Shown here: positions 1 through 38,969 of the stretch, in pieces | Position numbering within the stretch: the first letter of the stretch is position 1 | Layout of the letters: the number at the start of each line of letters is the position of its first letter | Source: Spirogloea muscicola | Taxonomy: Eukaryota > Streptophyta > Zygnematophyceae > Spirogloeales > Spirogloeaceae | DNA: 38,969 bases | Assembly (NCBI GenBank): GCA_009602725.1 | Contig: WELB01000069.1 | Location: forward strand, 5,742-44,710 | Reading direction: 5' to 3' | Program-made: the position numbers and the translations under genes | The notes under the pieces: generated by a model | What the model saw: the letters and a program-made list of their open reading frames with translations, nothing else | Told to the model about the DNA's origin: nothing | Database searches by the model: none

Positions 1-126
<126 letters not shown>

Positions 127-7352: not shown

Positions 7353-10300
7353 TCAATCACTCCAGTCCGACTCCTCATCCACCTCATCCTGGGGCTTGCC
7401 TGCCTTCTTGGCAATTGAAGCATGCAGCCTTGCAATCTGCACAGATCAAGGTGAAGTTCAGCTATGGTGCGGACATCTTTCAGCGGACATAAGTGCATGC
7501 CGTGAGATATCTGCAGATGCTTCACTGGGGAGGGCCAAGAACTCACTAGCGATGGGGGTTCAGGGCTGGTTCGAGTGCCACAGACAATCATTAACACAGG
7601 AAGCTGTCAGCAAAAAGAGATATAGAGGTATATCCCATGGATGTTGCAGCAAGGCCAGAGAAGTGAGGAGGGCGCAGCGACAAATGCCAAAACAAGCTCC
7701 TCATTCCAGTCTGTGAATTCTATCTTCCACTTTGTGCACATCTCTCTGCATCATTCTATCCGTGCAACAAGAAGGAGGTCACATTTTCAACCTGGCACTG
7801 GGTAATTGCAGAGGGGGTCCTGCACGCTTGACAGCTGCTGCAATGGTTGCTTGAGAGGGTGCGCCCTGAAGCATCAATCAAGTCTGAGCAAATAAGTTGT
7901 CCTTCATATATACACCTTCCCAAATAAGACATCACTACCCAGGACGATCAAAATTGTGCCTGGCATGCAACTTATGAGCAGTGCTTTGAATTTTCTTGCT
8001 GCTTGTAAGGAGGTCGCCTCTTCAATTATTCAGCTTCTCCATCAATGGGCATGGCTGTTCTCCAGCTCACACACCGCAATTTTCTCCTCAGAAGCAGTCT
8101 GCATAGCAAGCCTCCTCAACCTGAGGACATTTGTCATCTCCGCGAACATGTCCATGCTCTGCGCCAGAGGCGCAAGAGGGAACAGTCTTAGTAGCAACTC
8201 AAACCATGTCATTGTTACCACCTGCCCTTCTCATTCTCGTCCCGAAGGCCGTAAGAACCACAGCGAGTCCACTGTTGCCCAATAGGAAAGCTAAGCAAGT
8301 CTTGACAAGGCCGACAAAGCACCCCTCAGACTAAGCATCCTCTGATGTCCCCGTTTAGATGTTGAGATGCCATGATGTAGTCTATGAAATACACGCAGAG
8401 CTTTTATGTCACAGAATGCATCATGCAAGCCACCCACACACATACCATATGGCAGGCTAATCCAGTAAAAAATGAGTTCATTGATATCCAAATTTGATTT
8501 AGCCCCAGTGCCCCTCACCGGCACAGTTGGACTCTGCCGAGCTTGGCCAGTGTCATTCACAACTGGTGCAGAAGTCCCCTCCACATCTCGATCATTGGGT
8601 GGCCTTTTTTTTACTTCGCCCACTGAGTCTCTCTGTGCAACACATGTAACATGTCATTAGCTCAGGAATATTTATGTGAATGACATTGATCTTCTCCTCT
8701 CAAATCAAAGGTTGAGAGGAAAGTAACACACATCTGCCAGCATATCTCTAAGAGCCAGTCGTATGTACTCATACATGTCCTGAAAAGCTGCGACAGTCAT
8801 AAAGAGACTGATATACATGGTCGAAAGTCCAAGAAAACAAAGAAATAGTGAAGACCTTTCTCAAAATCAAGCCAGGGTTACGAATGGACTCCATGAGAGC
8901 AGCCCGCAGAGGATCTGTCAGCATCTCAAAAAGCAGAGAATTACTGATATTGTCAAGCTAGCAGCAGACGGATGCAGATAGATTCAGCTTCTTCAGATAA
9001 TGTACATGTAATTTCAGACCTCAAATTCAGACAGATTTTGCATGTCTAGAAGCTCAATGCCTAACAGCTAGCAGAGGTCAGTTATTTCAATCTCAGTCAT
9101 CTGCAAGTCCAGGACATACCAGAAGAAATAGCAGGAGCAGGGCTCTTCACTGTTGGTTGTCCAGCAGTTCTTTGGTCCTTGTCCACTAGACGACTGGATG
9201 AAGGACCACTTTCAGACAGGGGCTTGATTTCTTCACTGCCCAAAGCCGTGGAAGTGGCGGCAGGAACTCTGTGCAACTCAGCACTACGCTGAGGCTGCTG
9301 AGAAGTGTCCAACGTGATAGGAAGAGGCGATACAGAGGCCGCCATCCCTGACGAATTGGTACGCAACTGTTACCACATATTCGGTGTTGGCGCAATGTTA
9401 CCGCATCTTATAGCAATACAGGCATGCAGACTGAAGCCACACCAAGGTCCCTCCTGCCCTCACCCACCTCTTCACCCACACATCCACCCCTGGAACCCCC
9501 CCCTCCCACCCCAACCTCAATACATTGGCCTTGCCACATCTGGACGCTTTAAGTGACTTGGTACATTCGTCAGGCCTTTGGATGAGAAATTGCAATTCAA
9601 ATAGTCAGGAATCACTGCCCCATTGCTGCAAATCCATGGGGCCAGCCTGCACAAGTCAATGTATCAGCAGCCACTCCATTCCTCACCTTGAGTGGATGGA
9701 CCTGGACTAGGTGGGGTCAGGGCTGGATTAGGCAAAGTCGTTGCTCGCAAGACCGCTGATGGTGCAATAGGTGGTAAATCTGGCAACAAGCTTCTTCCTC
9801 CTGAGACAGCCCAATAGACATAATAAGCAATAAGCTTGTCTTGAATTGAAGATCACAACATCTTTGCTTGCCTGCAGATGCATGTAGTCTAGCTTTTGGA
9901 ATTAGGATTAGGGTCCAGCGTTAGGGTTTTAGGATCATTTTCTCTTGCAATTTCAGCTGCGACGGACAATAAGAGATGACTCTTCAATGTGTGTGCCTTA
10001 CCCCAGTTTAGATCTGCTATCATTGGAAGGTTGGGCAGCGAGGGGGGAAGGCTGATCTCAGGGACTGTCCCAAGAACTGGACGGAAGCCAAAATCTTCTG
10101 GCACTTCGCCAAGCTGGAAGTGACATGCTGTCAGATTCTGAAGTAATGCATCCTTCTCTCTCAATCTGCTACTATGTGTGCAGCGAATTTGCCTGAGTTG
10201 TCCTCTTGAAGCATTCTGAAAACGGGAGCTTAAAAGTTCTTCCATGAGGCATGACTGCTTACAAGCACATTCTTACAATCTGAGCCTCAGCTTGACAGCT

Positions 10301-11989
10301 GCGGTACCTACTTCTGACTCTCTTGTGAGAATGCTGGAGAAGCCAGTGTCATCGTCCATCTGCAATTCTTCCTTTGCATCCTTGAGTGGCATTGTGAGGT
10401 TGTCAATGTGACGATAACTTCTGAAAAGACCCTCAAAGCAGCAAAATCCTTGATAAGTGATATGCAAGGGAGTCCACAACAGAGACCTATTCAGACGCAG
10501 TGCAACAAGCTGGAGCTGTTGTGAAAGTGGCAACACCATGGAAGCTGTGCTTTTGTCATACCTGCCATACACAACCTCTGTAGTATTGAAGAGAAGGAGG
10601 CTTGTGGCAGAATCAGTGTCCTGAGGAATGTCACCCAAGCCATCCTGAACGGCATTGAAAAGAAACGTTAGCGTGCCTAACCATGTGGCACCGGCACAAG
10701 AAGATTAATAGATATACATGAGCTTACCTAACATATTTCTACGGATATGAGTATACATTCGTATAGAAGACTAGACTCCAAAAGCCACACTAGTGAAAAG
10801 CATTGGTGAAGCCACACGTGCACTCACAATGTGCTCATTTGTTGTAATGAGAGGTTCCTGAGCAGTCTCAGAGAAGAAGCGAAAGAGTTCCAGGGCCTCT
10901 TCGGCACCTCTTGGCTCCTGCGACAGGCCAGAGCTTTAAATTGTACAGCTGCAATCGCAGATGCAAAGCGATGAACTGAGTGTAAGGTGAGGTATACATG
11001 AAGGAGATGCTGTCTGTCACCTAGCCGAACCACGGCTGCCAGCAAATGGCCAATCATTAAGCACCTGCTCTTCTGGAGCATCCACTATGCCACTCAGGCG
11101 CTGGGGCGTGCAAGTCTTGCTGCCCGCTCGGTCTCTGAAGACGCTGACGTAGTCAACGTCCACAGGGTCGACCACGGGGTACTTGGATGGCGAAAAGATC
11201 GTGAGGGCTTTCTGGGAGCCCTCGATGTTGTCAATGCTGGCCTGCAGGTAATGCGCAGCTGACGTGCCGCCTCTCTTGTCAGATACCTCCGCTGAACCCC
11301 GCGGCCGAAAACGTCACCGCAGGCGGTCAGGACGCTGCTGCCAGCCTGCTGAGGTATATCCTCAACCAAGACTGACGCTGCAGTGCTTAGAGCAGGTCCA
11401 TGAGCTCCTTGTCGCCGCCAGCCTTCAGTCGGGCATTCATAGGCCTATCGAACCCTGCAAGACCGAAGCCCCACCTGCACGGCTCGGATACGACGCGAGA
11501 GGCCCTGCAGCCGCTGCTGCTCCTCATCAACCTGGCATCGCCGAGGCAGCACAGCAGCGCCAGAGAGACACAGTGCACTATGTCAGATCGGGACTGACGA
11601 GGTGCAGGTGCAGCTCTGCATCTGCGGCTTCGCAGGCGACATCCGAGTCGGCCGATCGGAGCTACCAGGAGACGGGCCAGTGCCAGTGACAGAGCTGCGG
11701 TCAGCAGGCTCTTCACCCGCTCCCCCAAGGCATCGAAGACGGCGGTGGCGGCGTCGCGCAGCGCGAGGAGGCTGCCGCACAGCCGGTCGTACGTCTCGGA
11801 CGGGCGCAGGTCCTGCGCTACAACTGAGGAGGCAAGAGCGTGGCGCGGCTGGTGGAGTGTCAGCGATGAGGCAAACCCTAAGCTGCTCTGGCTAAGCCTG
11901 GCTGGCCAGTCTGCCCCCGCCGGACGCAGGCTGCAGGTCCCCCTTCCAGACGGCGACGCACCGGAGACCTCGAAGGCCTGCGCCGCCAT
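7353..11989 (-). CDS. WASHC1: WASH complex subunit 1 (WASP/SCAR-family actin nucleation-promoting factor)
   Basis: Phase-consistent exons: 11989-11962, 11823-11717, 11531-11475, 11241-11065, 10917-10828, 10644-10562, 10420-10312, 10215-10002, 9800-9687, 9347-9120 and 8622-8519. A probable exon is 7865-7792, and the last exon is 7436-7353. WASH hallmarks follow the family order. First comes an N-terminal WAHD1-like region (DLRPSETYDRLCGSLLALRD). Then come EGSQKALTIFSPSKYP, SLLLFNTTEVVYG, FGFRPVLGTVPEISLP and LPNLPMIADLNWGG, followed by proline-rich segments. The protein ends in an acidic tail DEVDEESDWSD with the Trp that contacts Arp2/3. Animal and amoeba WASH activates Arp2/3 on endosomes. 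The WH2 segment (7865-7792, AVKRAGPPLQ) is weak. A helix MDMFAEMTNVLRLRRLAM (about 8151-8099) may be the C motif but lies before it. The join from 8519 to 7436 is unresolved. Confidence 0.82.
9899..9936 (+). repeat. Degenerate telomere-like repeat
   Basis: Within a WASH intron, ATTAGGATTAGGG and GTTAGGGTTTTAGG occur close together, resembling plant/algal TTTAGGG units. It is too short and too degenerate to be a telomere. Confidence 0.4.
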
Positions 11990-12245: not shown

Positions 12246-12775
12246 CTGACCTGAGGTTGCTTAGCAGGGGTTACTGAGGAAGAAGTGGCTCTCTGAGTGC
12301 ATCGCAGCACTTAGTTTCTTCTTGTGCTTGTTGTTCCCAGTGCTTCCCCTAGCCCCTTCTCGTCCTTTGTTCATTCTTTTTTGGGCTGGCTTTTTCTCTT
12401 CTTTTCCAGCCCCTAGCCTCTTTCTTTCTTTCTTTATCATCTTCAGGCCCCCTTCGTAGCTGCTTAGCGCTCTTTGGAAGAAAGGGGCTCGCCCATTGAG
12501 GATAGAAGAAGTGGCTCTCCTAATGGGGGCAAGGGCTGTGAGAAGCCAGCCCGAGAAGAATTGACAAGGTTCGAAGGGGCCAAAGAACGAGCTAGGCAGC
12601 GACTGCGGGGCCTGAAGAGGCTATGGCAGAACGGGGGAGGATGGACCACTTAGTAGTTACGAGTGAGGAGCCTCACATCCGACAGACTAGCTGCCGGTAA
12701 ACTATCCCCCTGACGAAAGCCGGAGGCCGCAGCGAGAGCACGGCCAGCACGCAGATGCAAGGCGTGGGCCATGGN
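12246..12775. repeat. Dispersed repeat between the duplicated WASH 5' exons
   Basis: 12246-12277 (+) reads PDLRLLSRGY then stop. 12464-12740 carries the family core (GGCTGTGAGAAGCCAGCCC near 12534) and, on the minus strand, ends LPAASLSDVRLLTRNY then stop at 12650-12652. 12340-12460 is pyrimidine-rich. 12736-12770 matches about 26655-26690. The block separates the two copies of the WASH 5' exons. An N lies at 12775. Confidence 0.7.
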
Positions 12776-13286
12776 AGACGAGAGGCCCTGCAGCCGCTGC
12801 TGCTCCTCATCAACCTGGCATCGACGTGGGAGCAAAGCAGCGCCAGAGAGACACAGTGCACCATGTCAGCTCGGGGACTGACGAGGTGCAGGTGCAGCTC
12901 TGCATCTGCGGCCTTCACGAGCTATATCCGAGTCGGCCGATCGGAGCCACCAGGAGACAACGGGCCAGAGCCAGTGGCAGAGCTGCGCGGCAGCGCGCTC
13001 CTCACACGCTCCCCCAAGGCGTCGAAGATGGCGGTGGCGGCGTCGCGCAGAGCGAGGAGGCTGCCGCACAGCCGGTCGTACGTCTCGGACGGGCGCAGGT
13101 CCTGTGCCACCACTGAGCGTGGCGCAGCGGGGGGGAGTGTCAGCGATGAGGCAGCTGTCGTTGTCTGAGCCTGGCCGGCGGTCTGCCCCCGCCGCACGCA
13201 GGCCCCCTTCCCGACAGCGACGAGGCCCGCCCGCGCGTCGAGGACGGCGGCGACGCACCGGGGACCTCGAAGGCCTGCGCCGCCAT
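12650..13286 (-). pseudogene. Duplicated WASH 5' exons (truncated copy or alternative first exons)
   Basis: Exons 13286-13259, 13112-13006 and a third starting at 12814 match WASH exons 1-3. Exons 1 and 2 have identical lengths (28 and 107 nt) and the same splice phases. Among shared residues I see Val to Ile in the ATAIFDALGER segment and Ser to Pro at the end of exon 1. Exon 3 keeps VDEEQQRLQGL, then loses similarity near the N at 12775 and stays open into the dispersed repeat. It stops after LLTRNY at 12650. Read straight through, it would encode about 99 residues carrying only the WAHD1-like N-terminus. It may be a decaying copy, an expressed short paralogue, or a second 5' end spliced to the full gene. 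Upstream flanks also match (11990-12253 against 13287-13572) but are clearly diverged. Confidence 0.7.
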
Positions 13287-13572
13287 GGCCGCCGCGCCGG
13301 CCAGTCCCGCCGCGAAGCCCCGAGTGGAGGGAATGGAAGCACCACGGCTGACTGGTGCTGTCGTTTGAAGATTCATACAAAGCGGCTGTAAGAGAGAAGG
13401 CGCGCGGGGCGCATGAAATGAAAGGGAGGCTGTAAACGACCAGCCGGGTGCATGCAGATGGGGCTCATATCGACGTGTAAGTTAGCGGGGCTACAGGCTA
13501 GGAAAGGGATATCTTAGATGGGAGAACATGGGATGGGGTATTGAGCATTTCCGTGTCAGGCTATATTGGCAC

Positions 13573-14115
13573 TGGTGATGGCATCAAATAGCAGTGGCAC
13601 TAACGGCAAGCCTCCGTTCCTTCTTGTTCGCCCCGCACGGCTGTGCGCCCGTCGATCAGGGCGCCCGCATCGGAGGGCCAAGCACCGTGGACGTGGCCGC
13701 GCCCGAGGGGCGTGGCCGCTTGTTCTCCGACAGCTTCTCGGCAACCTCCGAGTCGGTGGGCTCCTGCCGTGGACACATCAACAGTGCCTTGCAGCCATCT
13801 ATTTGACGGCAGCCGAGGCGCAGCCCGTCGGGGTCGCATAACGGTGACTGTCCTCGATAAACCAGCTGCCGATAACCTCCACCCGGTTTGGGATGAAGCT
13901 GCTGGTAAGACCTGTAACACCAAATTCCACTTCTGCCGACGTCGACTGCGCCTGCGTGTCTCCGCGCCACTCCCCGCGGCGGCTGCGGCGGCGGCGGCGG
14001 CGTAGCAGCAGAGAGGGGAGTAGAGAGGCGAGGGACGAGGGCGCGCACGAAAGCGATTGAGGCTGGGAGGCGCTACGGACGATATCGTTTTGCTGGTGCG
14101 GCCTGCGGGGCGGCC
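13573..14115. promoter_or_regulatory. Divergent GC-rich intergenic region upstream of FtsH
   Basis: This region lies between the duplicated WASH 5' end (-) and FtsH (+). It is GC-rich with a GCG/GGC run near 13975-14003. Several overlapping ORFs are open on both strands. One on the minus strand (13656-14048, 130 residues) has a fairly natural stretch, QEPTDSEVAEKLSENKRPRP, but no family is recognised. I treat it as promoter with a low-confidence ORF. Confidence 0.35.
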
Positions 14116-17100
14116 ATGCAGGCCCTGCAGGCGCAGCGGTCGGGCCGCTCGCTGCTGGCCCACGCCCTGCGCAACTCTCCGCTCTCGCAGCAGGCAAGCC
14201 TGCTGCGGGAAAGGCTCGCGTCCGGCCTCACAGCGGAGACTTCGTCGCAGATAGCGCCAGACCTGGGAGCCGGCCTGAGGGGCTTCCGGTGTGGGGCTTA
14301 CCATACTACGTCTCGGCGTGCTGGAGCCACGCCACCGCACCTCGGGTCTGTGCCACTGGGGTACTTGGATGCGGCTGCCAGTAGGCGGCCTTTCCATGTC
14401 CTCCTCGGCCAGGCAGGGTCTGCGGTAAGGAATTACAGTGGAGGCGGACTTGGTGTCAGGGAAGCTCTTGAAGCTGCGCAGCAGTGGCGAACTCGCCTAG
14501 TCTCGCAGCTCCAACAGAGAGGCAGCAAGGTGAGATACCTTCTATGTGTACCCTTCTGTACTCTACAAGAAGACGGATGAAGCATCAATCGGATATGTGC
14601 CGAAGTAATGAATCTTGTTGTCGTCCTCACTTATACAGCATGATGATGTATTGATTGCAATTTTCTAGTCTGATGTTGGGATTATGTAGCTGCAGTGGCA
14701 GACAGGAGTGGGGCATCCGGGGAGATCATTGAGAAGATTCTCCTCTGAAGGCCCTAAGAAGAAAGGTACAGCATCTTCTCACCATCTTTGCACCATATTT
14801 GCAGCCTCTTTGCAGCATCATCAACAAGTAGTGTGCCGCCATTTCAAGCGGAACAATGAGGAGGCCACAGGCCAATCCACCCTGCCTGATGGAGTCTGTG
14901 GTTCTGTCGCCGTTGACAGACTATGAGAACTTTTATCCCAAGAACAAGAAAGAGCTACCAAGGGGCCAGCGGGAGCACAAAACTGAGGGAAGAGGTAATG
15001 ATACAATCACAAATTCACTTCTCCCTTGTATACAAATATGGCTTGTATTATTGGGGCACGGTGCCAGCTTCTGGCACTGCTCATTTCATGCCATCATGGA
15101 GAGCATATAATGCTCTCTGGAATTACCTTCTTGTCACTTGCAGAGGAAGGGAAAAGTGAGCAGCAGAAGGGTTTTGACAACATGTACAAAGAGTATGGTG
15201 GACAGATGCAATCACTGGTCTTAACTTCCCTGGTTACTGCTGCCGTGTTGGCAAGCCTTTCTGTTGGCCGACCAGAGTCGCAGGAGGTAAGTCGAGCCTG
15301 CACTCGTTGGCTGCAATGATAAGCTAACAATCAGGGCACTAGGTCTTGTTGGTCTTTTAGAACCCCTTCTCAAGTACTGCAGCCTGTTGTTGTCAAGTCA
15401 TGCCATTAGAAAACAGCATCGCACACATGCACGGTAATTTGCACAATTCAGCTTTGCCCCCCCCATGTGAGAGGTGTTGCAGCTCAATCTATGCTGTGGA
15501 GCTGTTCTGTGAGTGCAGATAAGCTTCCAAGAATTCAAGAACAAGCTGTTAGAGGCTGGAGTGGTGGACCGCATTGAGGTTTCTAACAAGAATACAGCAA
15601 AAGTATATGTCTATCCGCAAAAGCTTGCGACAGCCAAGAGCGAGTTTAGTGATCTGAGTCCGTCAGAAACCAAGCCGCCGCAACAGCAGAACCCAAGTCA
15701 GTACAAGTTCTACTTCAACATTGGTAGCATTGACTCTTTTGAGCGAAAGCTGGAAGACGCCCAGGATGCGCTGGGCATGGACCCCCATGAGTACGTGCCG
15801 GTCACCTATGTAACAGAAATGAGCTGGCAAAATGAGCTCTTGAGGCTGTCGCCAACTCTCTTGTTGGTTGCTGCGTACGTCTTCTTCACCCGTCGCATGC
15901 AAGGCGGCCTTGGTGTTGGAGGTGGAGGAGGAGGAGGAGCTCGGGGAATTTTCAATGTTGGCAAGGCGCAGGTTACGAAGGTGGATAAGAACTCAAAGAA
16001 CAAGGTCAGTCATTCATTAGCACAGTATGAAAATAGTCTGTGGTGGCTACATAAGGCGACATGTATCTGCTAGCAACCTGCATGGCTTTGGGAAGAGGAA
16101 GAGTTTTTTGGATTCTGGCAGCTGACGCTGACAAGGTGTGGACTTGTTGCTATCAACCATCAGGTCTACTTCAAGGATGTTGCTGGTTGCGACGAAGCAA
16201 AACAGGAAGTCATGGAGTTTGTGCATTTCCTGAAGAACCCAAAGAAGTATCAAGAGCTTGGTGCAAAGATTCCCAAGGGTGCCCTCCTCGTTGGCCCTCC
16301 AGGGACTGGCAAAACGCTTCTTGCAAAGGCAACGGCAGGGGAGGTAAACCCTCTTTGATTGTTGCTACTTTCCTCAACTTGACAAAGTATCGTCTCTCAT
16401 TCTCGGTAAGCTGCTGACAGGCCTTGGTTGCAAACTGAATGGAATCTCGGCTTTGTGTTACTATTATGCCATTATGCAAGTCTGTCATTATCTTAACCAG
16501 AAACGTCCTCCTTGTACCTTTGACAGGCCGGTGTTCCCTTTTTATCGATTAGCGGGTCGGATTTTATGGAGATGTTTGTTGGCGTGGGCCCTTCCAGAGT
16601 CAGAGACCTTTTTGCTCAGGCCAGGTCAGCTCAGCCAAGCATCATCTTCATTGACGAGATTGATGCAATCGGGCGAGCACGAGGCAGGGGAGGTTTTGCT
16701 GGAGGGAATGATGAGCGGGAGAACACATTAAATCAGCTACTGGTGGAGATGGATGGCTTTGCGTCGACCTCTGGGGTTGTCATACTGGCGGGAACAAATC
16801 GGCCAGACATCCTTGATCCTGCCCTCCTCAGGCCAGGGCGATTTGACCGCCAGATAGCAATTGACCGGCCTGACATCAATGGACGCGAGCAGATTTTCCA
16901 GATCTACCTGAAGAAGCTGAAGCTTGACAAAGATGTGCGGACGTAAAGCATTTTTCATCAGACCATATGGCTTGCTTCACGTCTATGTCATATTCTTTCT
17001 CCTGCCATAATGTAGATGCCAGCAGATGACCTGCTTATGGTTTTTCTGTACTGACACCAAGGCTGGCAAATGCAGGTGACTTTCTATTCTCAAAGGATGG

Positions 17101-18580
17101 CTGCACTGACCCCAGGCTTTGCTGGGGCAGACATTGCAAATGTAGCAAATGAGGCTGCGCTGATTGCTGCTCGTCATGATCGAGCAGTGGTTATCATGGA
17201 CGACTTTGAGGCAGCAATTGACAGAATAATTGGAGGTTTAGAGAAGAAGAAGAAGGTAAGTGTGCTGCCCATGGTAATATTGTGGATGTACAATCGGGCA
17301 TTGAGCTTCAAGCTGTAGGAGGCTGTGAGCCTTTCCGTCTCTTATCCAGAGGTGCATTGGGAATTTATGTGTTATTGCACAGGTCATTAGCAAGGAGGAG
17401 CGGAGAACGGTTGCTTATCATGAAGCAGGGCATGCCGTCGCGGGATGGTTCCTGGAGCACGCCGAACCTCTGCTGAAGGTGTCTATTGTGCCTCGCGGTA
17501 CAGCCGCCTTGGGATTTGCCCAGTACCTTCCCAATGAAAACCTCCTGATGACTAAGGAGCAGCTTTTGGACATGACCTGCATGACACTGGGAGGGCGGGC
17601 TTCTGAAGAGGTGAGGCTGTTGTGCAGAACGCTTTCTAGGCAGTGTTGGAGAAGGGGCCCCCTTATATTGGTTAATGATTACGTATCTTTCAGTATCTGT
17701 CCACCAAAAACTCAAGCTCCCACACTGCTGTAGCATTTGGGTATCACAAACTCAATAGCGAGGATTCATTGCTACTGCTCAGGGCTGAATACTTGTGTTT
17801 TGAGTTGGCAGATCTTGCTGGGGAAGATTTCTACAGGTGCTCAGAATGATCTGGAGAAGGTCACTAAGATGACATACGCTCAAGTAGCCATATATGGCTT
17901 CAGTGACAAAGTAGGTCTGCTGTCCTTCCCTCAGAGGGATCAAGGTGGGCTGGAGGGCCTCAACAAGCCATATGGCAACCAGACTGCTGAAATTATTGAT
18001 GTGGAGGTATGTTATGATTTGCTGATACAGTTGCATGTCACTCGTCAACCATTCATGCTGCTGCTTTGAAGTACTACCTGTTTAGTACTGAGACAGCCTG
18101 TAGTGATTTTGGTGGCATGTCATGCTGGTCAAGCTGGATGTTGCTACTTTTTATGCTAGCCATTCTTACCAACCTACAATATATGAATATGTTGCTCATG
18201 GCAAGTTGCTTGTCAGCTCAAATCTGATGGAATGTTGGCAGGTGCGTGAGTGGGTGGACAAGGCATACAAACGGACTCTGGCTATTATGAAGGAGCACAG
18301 GGCTGGAGTGGAGGCGCTGGCACAGCAGCTACTGTTGCGAGAGGTCCTCCACCAGGAAGACCTCGTCAAGATCCTGGGTCCGCGGCCTTTCACAAGTGCA
18401 GAGCTCACAAATTACGACAAATTCAAGCAGGGCTTTGCTGGAAATGAGGAGCTGAACCAAGGCAAAGACAAGGGCGAGGAGGTGGAGGAGGACAGCGGCA
18501 AGGCGGAGTCCCCTGGGGGTGGCAGCGGTGGCGGCCTCTTAGGCGTGCCAGTGCTTGCGGCCGTGCAGGGCACCCTTTAG
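14116..18580 (+). CDS. FTSH3: Mitochondrial FtsH-type AAA metalloprotease (FTSH3/10, m-AAA type)
   Basis: Eleven phase-consistent exons: 14116-14529, 14702-14765, 14920-14994, 15144-15286, 15519-16004, 16164-16343, 16527-16934, 17076-17255, 17383-17610, 17812-18006 and 18242-18580; 903 residues. The N-terminus is Arg/Leu/Ser-rich with few acidic residues, as in a mitochondrial presequence. [11 protein letters not shown] then [11 protein letters not shown] follow, as in plant FTSH3/10. Two membrane segments flank the intermembrane domain ([20 protein letters not shown] near 212, [17 protein letters not shown] near 345). Walker A GPPGTGKT is about 438-445, Walker B IIFIDEID about 493-500, and the zinc site HEAGH about 663-667. 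Such proteases degrade and process inner-membrane proteins from the matrix side. Exon 7 is ended at a GTGCGG donor because this restores KLDKDVTFYSQR at family length. Exon 2 could instead start six bases earlier. The tail is Glu/Gly-rich. The paralogue (3 or 10) cannot be told. Confidence 0.93.

Positions 18581-38849: not shown

Positions 38850-38969
<120 letters not shown>

Follow-up and report, generated by a model that had tools for sequence, protein, structure and literature searches.

A stretch of DNA of 38,969 nucleotides from Spirogloea muscicola (hereafter, the window) contains what we interpret, with a probability of about 0.82, as a WASH (WASHC1) gene that is functional, belongs to a zygnematophyte alga and occurs in its genome as three homeologues. 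The predicted orthologue runs from 11989 to 7353 on the minus strand of the window (contig C69) and comprises 15 exons and 1524 coding bases, for a product of 507 residues. This product matches the Pfam profile PF11945 (WASH_WAHD) with E = 6.3e-41 (141.2 bits, against a cut-off of 24.2) over profile positions 2-281 of 292, and the two homeologous proteins do so with E = 1.9e-39 and 9e-40. WASH_WAHD is the sole Pfam family above its cut-off in the window protein, and the identification as WASH put forward by a previous sequence-only reading is hence borne out over nearly the full length of the profile. A search of PDB sequences with the same protein returned no solved WASH; its two matches at E up to 1 (best E 0.0055) are unrelated engineered or repetitive proteins.

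Gene model and domain architecture

The 15-exon model was built by combining three-frame reading of the sequence, comparison with the two other copies and splice signals, and every intron in it has GT-AG borders. The predicted coding sequence follows a single frame from an ATG at 11989 to a stop at 7353 and has DEESDWSD as its C-terminal end, so that the gene ends and the order of motifs originally proposed both hold exactly. The predicted features are the following:

11962-11989, minus strand: exon 1, with the start ATG (common to the three copies)
11717-11823, minus strand: exon 2, AQDLRPSETYDRL..., where the WAHD begins (model and PF11945)
11475-11531, minus strand: exon 3 (model and PF11945)
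11065-11241, minus strand: exon 4, KALTIFSPSKYP (model and PF11945)
10828-10917, minus strand: exon 5 (model and PF11945)
10562-10644, minus strand: exon 6, SLLLFNTTE (model and PF11945)
10312-10420, minus strand: exon 7 (model and PF11945)
10002-10113, minus strand: exon 8, GTVPEISLPPSLPNLPMIADLNW (acceptor from the three-copy comparison; PF11945)
9687-9800, minus strand: exon 9, LLPDLPPIAPSA, where the WAHD ends and a Pro-containing linker starts (model and PF11945)
9151-9347, minus strand: exon 10, linker, with an uncertain 3' end at a weak donor (model)
8856-8957, minus strand: exon 11, putative WH2 (V) segment LRAALMESIRNPGLILRK (PF02205 below cut-off; core pattern)
8519-8632, minus strand: exon 12, linker under weak constraint (model and dN/dS)
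8075-8158, minus strand: exon 13, C (connector) segment MFAEMTNVLRLRRLAM (C-segment rule)
7792-7865, minus strand: exon 14, linker (model and dN/dS)
7353-7428, minus strand: exon 15, with the stop codon preceded by the acidic A segment DEVDEESDWSD (protein invariant in the three copies)

Even by itself, the open frame that spans the beginning of exon 4 exceeds the PF11945 cut-off. The weak point of the model is the exon 10/11 junction, where the reading phase requires a GTGAAG donor; a stronger-looking GTATGT donor downstream was rejected for breaking the frame. Exon 8 had formerly been given a start at 10215 and was shortened to begin at 10113, the other copies carrying indels upstream of this position. 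Two open frames were discarded as candidate exons: 8779-8729, which contains deletions in the C36 copy, and 9060-9020, whose GT donor is gone in both other copies. The segment 7436-8519, which the sequence-only reading had left unresolved, is now assigned to exons 13 and 14 and their introns, flanked by exons 12 and 15, an arrangement predicted from comparison and splice signals.

Toward the C-terminus, the WH2 (exon 11), C (exon 13) and A (exon 15) segments appear in the usual order in all three copies. For exon 11, Pfam lists PF02205 (WH2) alone, with a score of 13.8 bits (E 0.05) that lies below the cut-off of 23.1, and WH2 was absent from the result when the longer tail was scanned; the WH2 core pattern is found in each of the copies. 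Exon 13 presents in all of them the three large hydrophobics spaced by four, the basic doublet and the further large hydrophobic that make up the C-segment rule of Kollmar 2012, and the acidic, Trp-containing C-terminus DEVDEESDWSD is identical throughout. Using W, C and A patterns that were composed after the protein had been seen, we found the three together and in order in every copy. When the 149-residue tail was shuffled 20,000 times, this combination came up in 0 shuffles, and the single patterns in 2571 (W), 123 (C) and 17 (A). A human WASH tail likewise matches these patterns. An earlier description of the WH2 and C segments as weak or rearranged is thus correct as regards the low WH2 score and incorrect as regards rearrangement. 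The suggestion that the acidic, Trp-containing C-terminus could engage Arp2/3 finds support as well.

Companion genes and possible composition of the complex

Companion genes were sought in a genome of 153.1 Mb in 471 contigs, the published assembly of Spirogloea muscicola CCAC 0214 being of 174 Mb (PMC11096116). SWIP (WASHC4) was matched at three loci by PF14746 and CCDC53 (WASHC3) at three loci by PF10152; ARPC4, the sole Arp2/3 subunit searched for, and CYFIP/SRA1 (PF05994) were each located at three loci too. Since CYFIP/SRA1, a SCAR-complex gene, is found at three loci, the SCAR complex is likely to be present as well. Six of ten SWIP open frames from contig C110 exceed the PF14744 cut-off and run consecutively over profile positions 64-333 of 346, the remaining four comprising one match to PF14746 and one to PF14745, both below cut-off, and two frames without a match. 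Eight CCDC53 frames were taken from two of the loci: seven give a match at E up to 1, including four that exceed the cut-off, and one has no match; the third locus carries the same four segments. At the SWIP locus on C104 (L026 1-2713), a 519-base unit that holds a candidate SWIP N-terminal exon forms a head-to-tail array of about five copies. The unit is single in C110 and C176, and the repeat is absent from the output of Tandem Repeats Finder, which reports periods up to 500 only.

The set of companions anticipated by the sequence-only reading was recovered in part. With the WASH complex of five subunits known from animals and Dictyostelium, the alga shares the genes for WASH, SWIP and CCDC53, and it differs from that complex in that strumpellin (WASHC5) and FAM21 (WASHC2) were not found in the 153.1 Mb searched. 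For strumpellin, none of four queries (the PF10266 profile, a human protein and two fragments of it) gave a candidate. The human query is sound, since it scores 1676 bits to PF10266. One of the fragments has 171 residues, as does a human SWIP fragment that served as control and gave ten matches at 41-55% identity (best E 8.8e-16), with each of the three SWIP loci represented; because this control detected the three loci, a partner conserved to the same degree as SWIP should be visible to the fragment method. For FAM21, a PF15255 profile search of the genome produced one candidate and no matches, and since it had no positive control the absence means little.

These two results leave the case for a full five-subunit complex incomplete and count against our preferred reading. 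The alternative that survives best, one compatible with that reading, is a reduced complex of WASH, SWIP and CCDC53 that lacks strumpellin and perhaps FAM21 too. Its support lies in four strumpellin queries having come back empty while the SWIP fragment matched every SWIP locus. However, the search proceeded exon by exon with a loose first pass, strumpellin may be more diverged, and it could sit in the remainder of the 174 Mb published; moreover, the positive control was SWIP and not a plant strumpellin, and FAM21 had no control. Strumpellin, furthermore, matters in Dictyostelium, where a mutant emerged from a screen for exocytosis defects, and where WASH is described as non-functional in swip mutants and as active but unregulated in fam21 mutants (PMC5450189). 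The Dictyostelium mutants make a WASH-SWIP-CCDC53 core conceivable, without proving it. We consider the reduced complex a real possibility with the odds clearly against it. Somewhat more tentative still is the proposal that strumpellin, and perhaps FAM21 too, has been lost from an alga in which WASH, SWIP and CCDC53 are all retained at three loci; it might then operate a reduced complex, or one in which another large subunit, such as the SCAR-complex NAP1, takes the vacant place.

Homeologous copies, selection and host genome

A WASH_WAHD profile search of the genome's contigs identified two more WASH loci, on C36 and C19. The three copies have the same 15 exon lengths, 507 residues each and zero coding indels, and they lie on contigs of 0.67, 0.90 and 1.15 Mb in which the adjoining stretches are collinear. 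A genome triplication has been reported for Spirogloea muscicola (PMC7994812), and WASH, SWIP, CCDC53, ARPC4 and CYFIP/SRA1 each occupy three loci. We interpret the WASH trio as homeologues, matching the expectation from such a triplication; the probability stated at the outset applies jointly to this interpretation and to a functional WASH gene in a zygnematophyte alga.

Whole-gene dN/dS (Nei-Gojobori) amounts to 0.227, 0.370 and 0.299 in the three pairs, and exon 15 shows no amino-acid change among the copies. Exons 12 and 14 are loosely constrained, with dN/dS of 0.39-1.23 based on few sites. The weak constraint on these linker exons, together with the two complex subunits that were not found, could be taken as signs of a WASH remnant in decay, akin to the N-terminal fragments of some monocots, but the open frames of identical length in three copies, the whole-gene dN/dS of 0.23-0.37 and the unchanged protein sequence of exon 15 make such decay improbable. 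It is less probable again that the window encodes a SCAR/WAVE or other WASP-family protein instead of WASH. The CYFIP/SRA1 gene leads us to expect a SCAR protein somewhere in the genome, but the WASH_WAHD match extends over almost the whole profile and no other family reaches its cut-off. The plant SCAR/WAVE regulatory complex, to which CYFIP/SRA1 provides a link in this alga, has a subunit architecture described as analogous to that of the WASH complex (PMC8047104); the window protein differs in that its N-terminal domain is of the WASH and not of the SCAR type.

In all probability the host is Spirogloea muscicola, a streptophyte alga (Streptophyta, Zygnematophyceae): GRAS genes are present, and the genes examined come at three loci each. 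The green-lineage origin surmised earlier is supported. Contamination by a protist or another eukaryote outside the algae, in favour of which nothing was found, can be dismissed as the least probable account, given three homeologous WASH copies on contigs of 0.67 to 1.15 Mb with collinear neighbouring stretches and a large GRAS family in the genome. The GRAS family is represented by 92 exon matches, several of which seem to come in threes, on contigs C53, C160, C91, C10, C239, C162, C27, C28, C180 and others.

Upstream of the WASH gene, the window includes one further feature that bears on copy number:

12776-15470, no strand assigned: about 2.7 kb at 100% identity to C19, beginning directly after a single N at 12775

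Beyond about 15470, identity to C19 is 96-99% for a few hundred bases; for the WASH gene proper of C69 it is about 86%. Within the stretch, 12779-13286 duplicates WASH exons 1 and 2 together with the greater part of exon 3. The most likely account of the stretch is an assembly join between homeologues, not a second WASH gene, although a recent gene conversion may provide an alternative; the WASH gene at 7353-11989 needs no part of this stretch to be complete. At both ends of the window (1-123 and 38850-38969) there are runs of A longer than 100 bases, which may be assembly gaps written as A. On the plus strand, frames at 15513-18580 match FtsH_ext, with Peptidase_M41 just under its cut-off, and for this reason the adjoining gene is probably an FtsH/AFG3-type protease.

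Distribution and proposed role of WASH

WASH has been reported in Ostreococcus, Physcomitrella, Selaginella and Picea; in the same survey, some monocots retain N-terminal fragments, eudicots have lost the gene, and Chlamydomonas and Volvox are given as having neither WASH nor WAVE (Kollmar 2012). According to a 2013 review, all five subunits have been reported among plants from Ostreococcus lucimarinus only (PMC3689024). To say of land plants in general that they lack WASH is therefore too broad, as the moss Physcomitrella, Selaginella and Picea have it in the same survey (Kollmar 2012). Because of its occurrence in Ostreococcus, moss, Selaginella and spruce, a zygnematophyte WASH is expected by descent, and the gene of this alga adds to an already known family rather than founding one. 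It has in common with those proteins, by their description, the WAHD, the conserved middle motifs, a proline-rich part and a VCA tail; it departs from the survey's finding of one functional WASH in nearly all species in that the alga retains three homeologues (Kollmar 2012). Among the literature matches listed for green and streptophyte algae (titles and abstract starts), we encountered no report of WASH in Spirogloea or other Zygnematophyceae.

WASH switches on branched-actin assembly at internal membranes. In the alga, the WAHD part would assemble with SWIP and CCDC53 into a complex located on endosomal or TGN-like membranes, where the VCA tail would pass actin to Arp2/3 and so give rise to branched actin for membrane sorting or fission. 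This system would coexist with a SCAR/WAVE complex at the cell cortex, as suggested by CYFIP/SRA1.

Should the alga indeed operate a reduced or hybrid complex, it would be an exception to the all-or-none manner in which the WASH complex is reported to be lost, and would provide the first hint of a WASH/WAVE hybrid, of which none is known according to PMC8047104. If strumpellin is truly missing, the alga would constitute a natural test of the subunits that WASH actually requires. Zygnematophyceae are the algal sister group of land plants. The co-occurrence of an intact WASH with SWIP, CCDC53, ARPC4 and a SCAR-complex gene in an alga very probably belonging to this group agrees with a scenario in which both WASH and SCAR/WAVE were present in the algal ancestor of land plants and the loss of WASH came later, among flowering plants.
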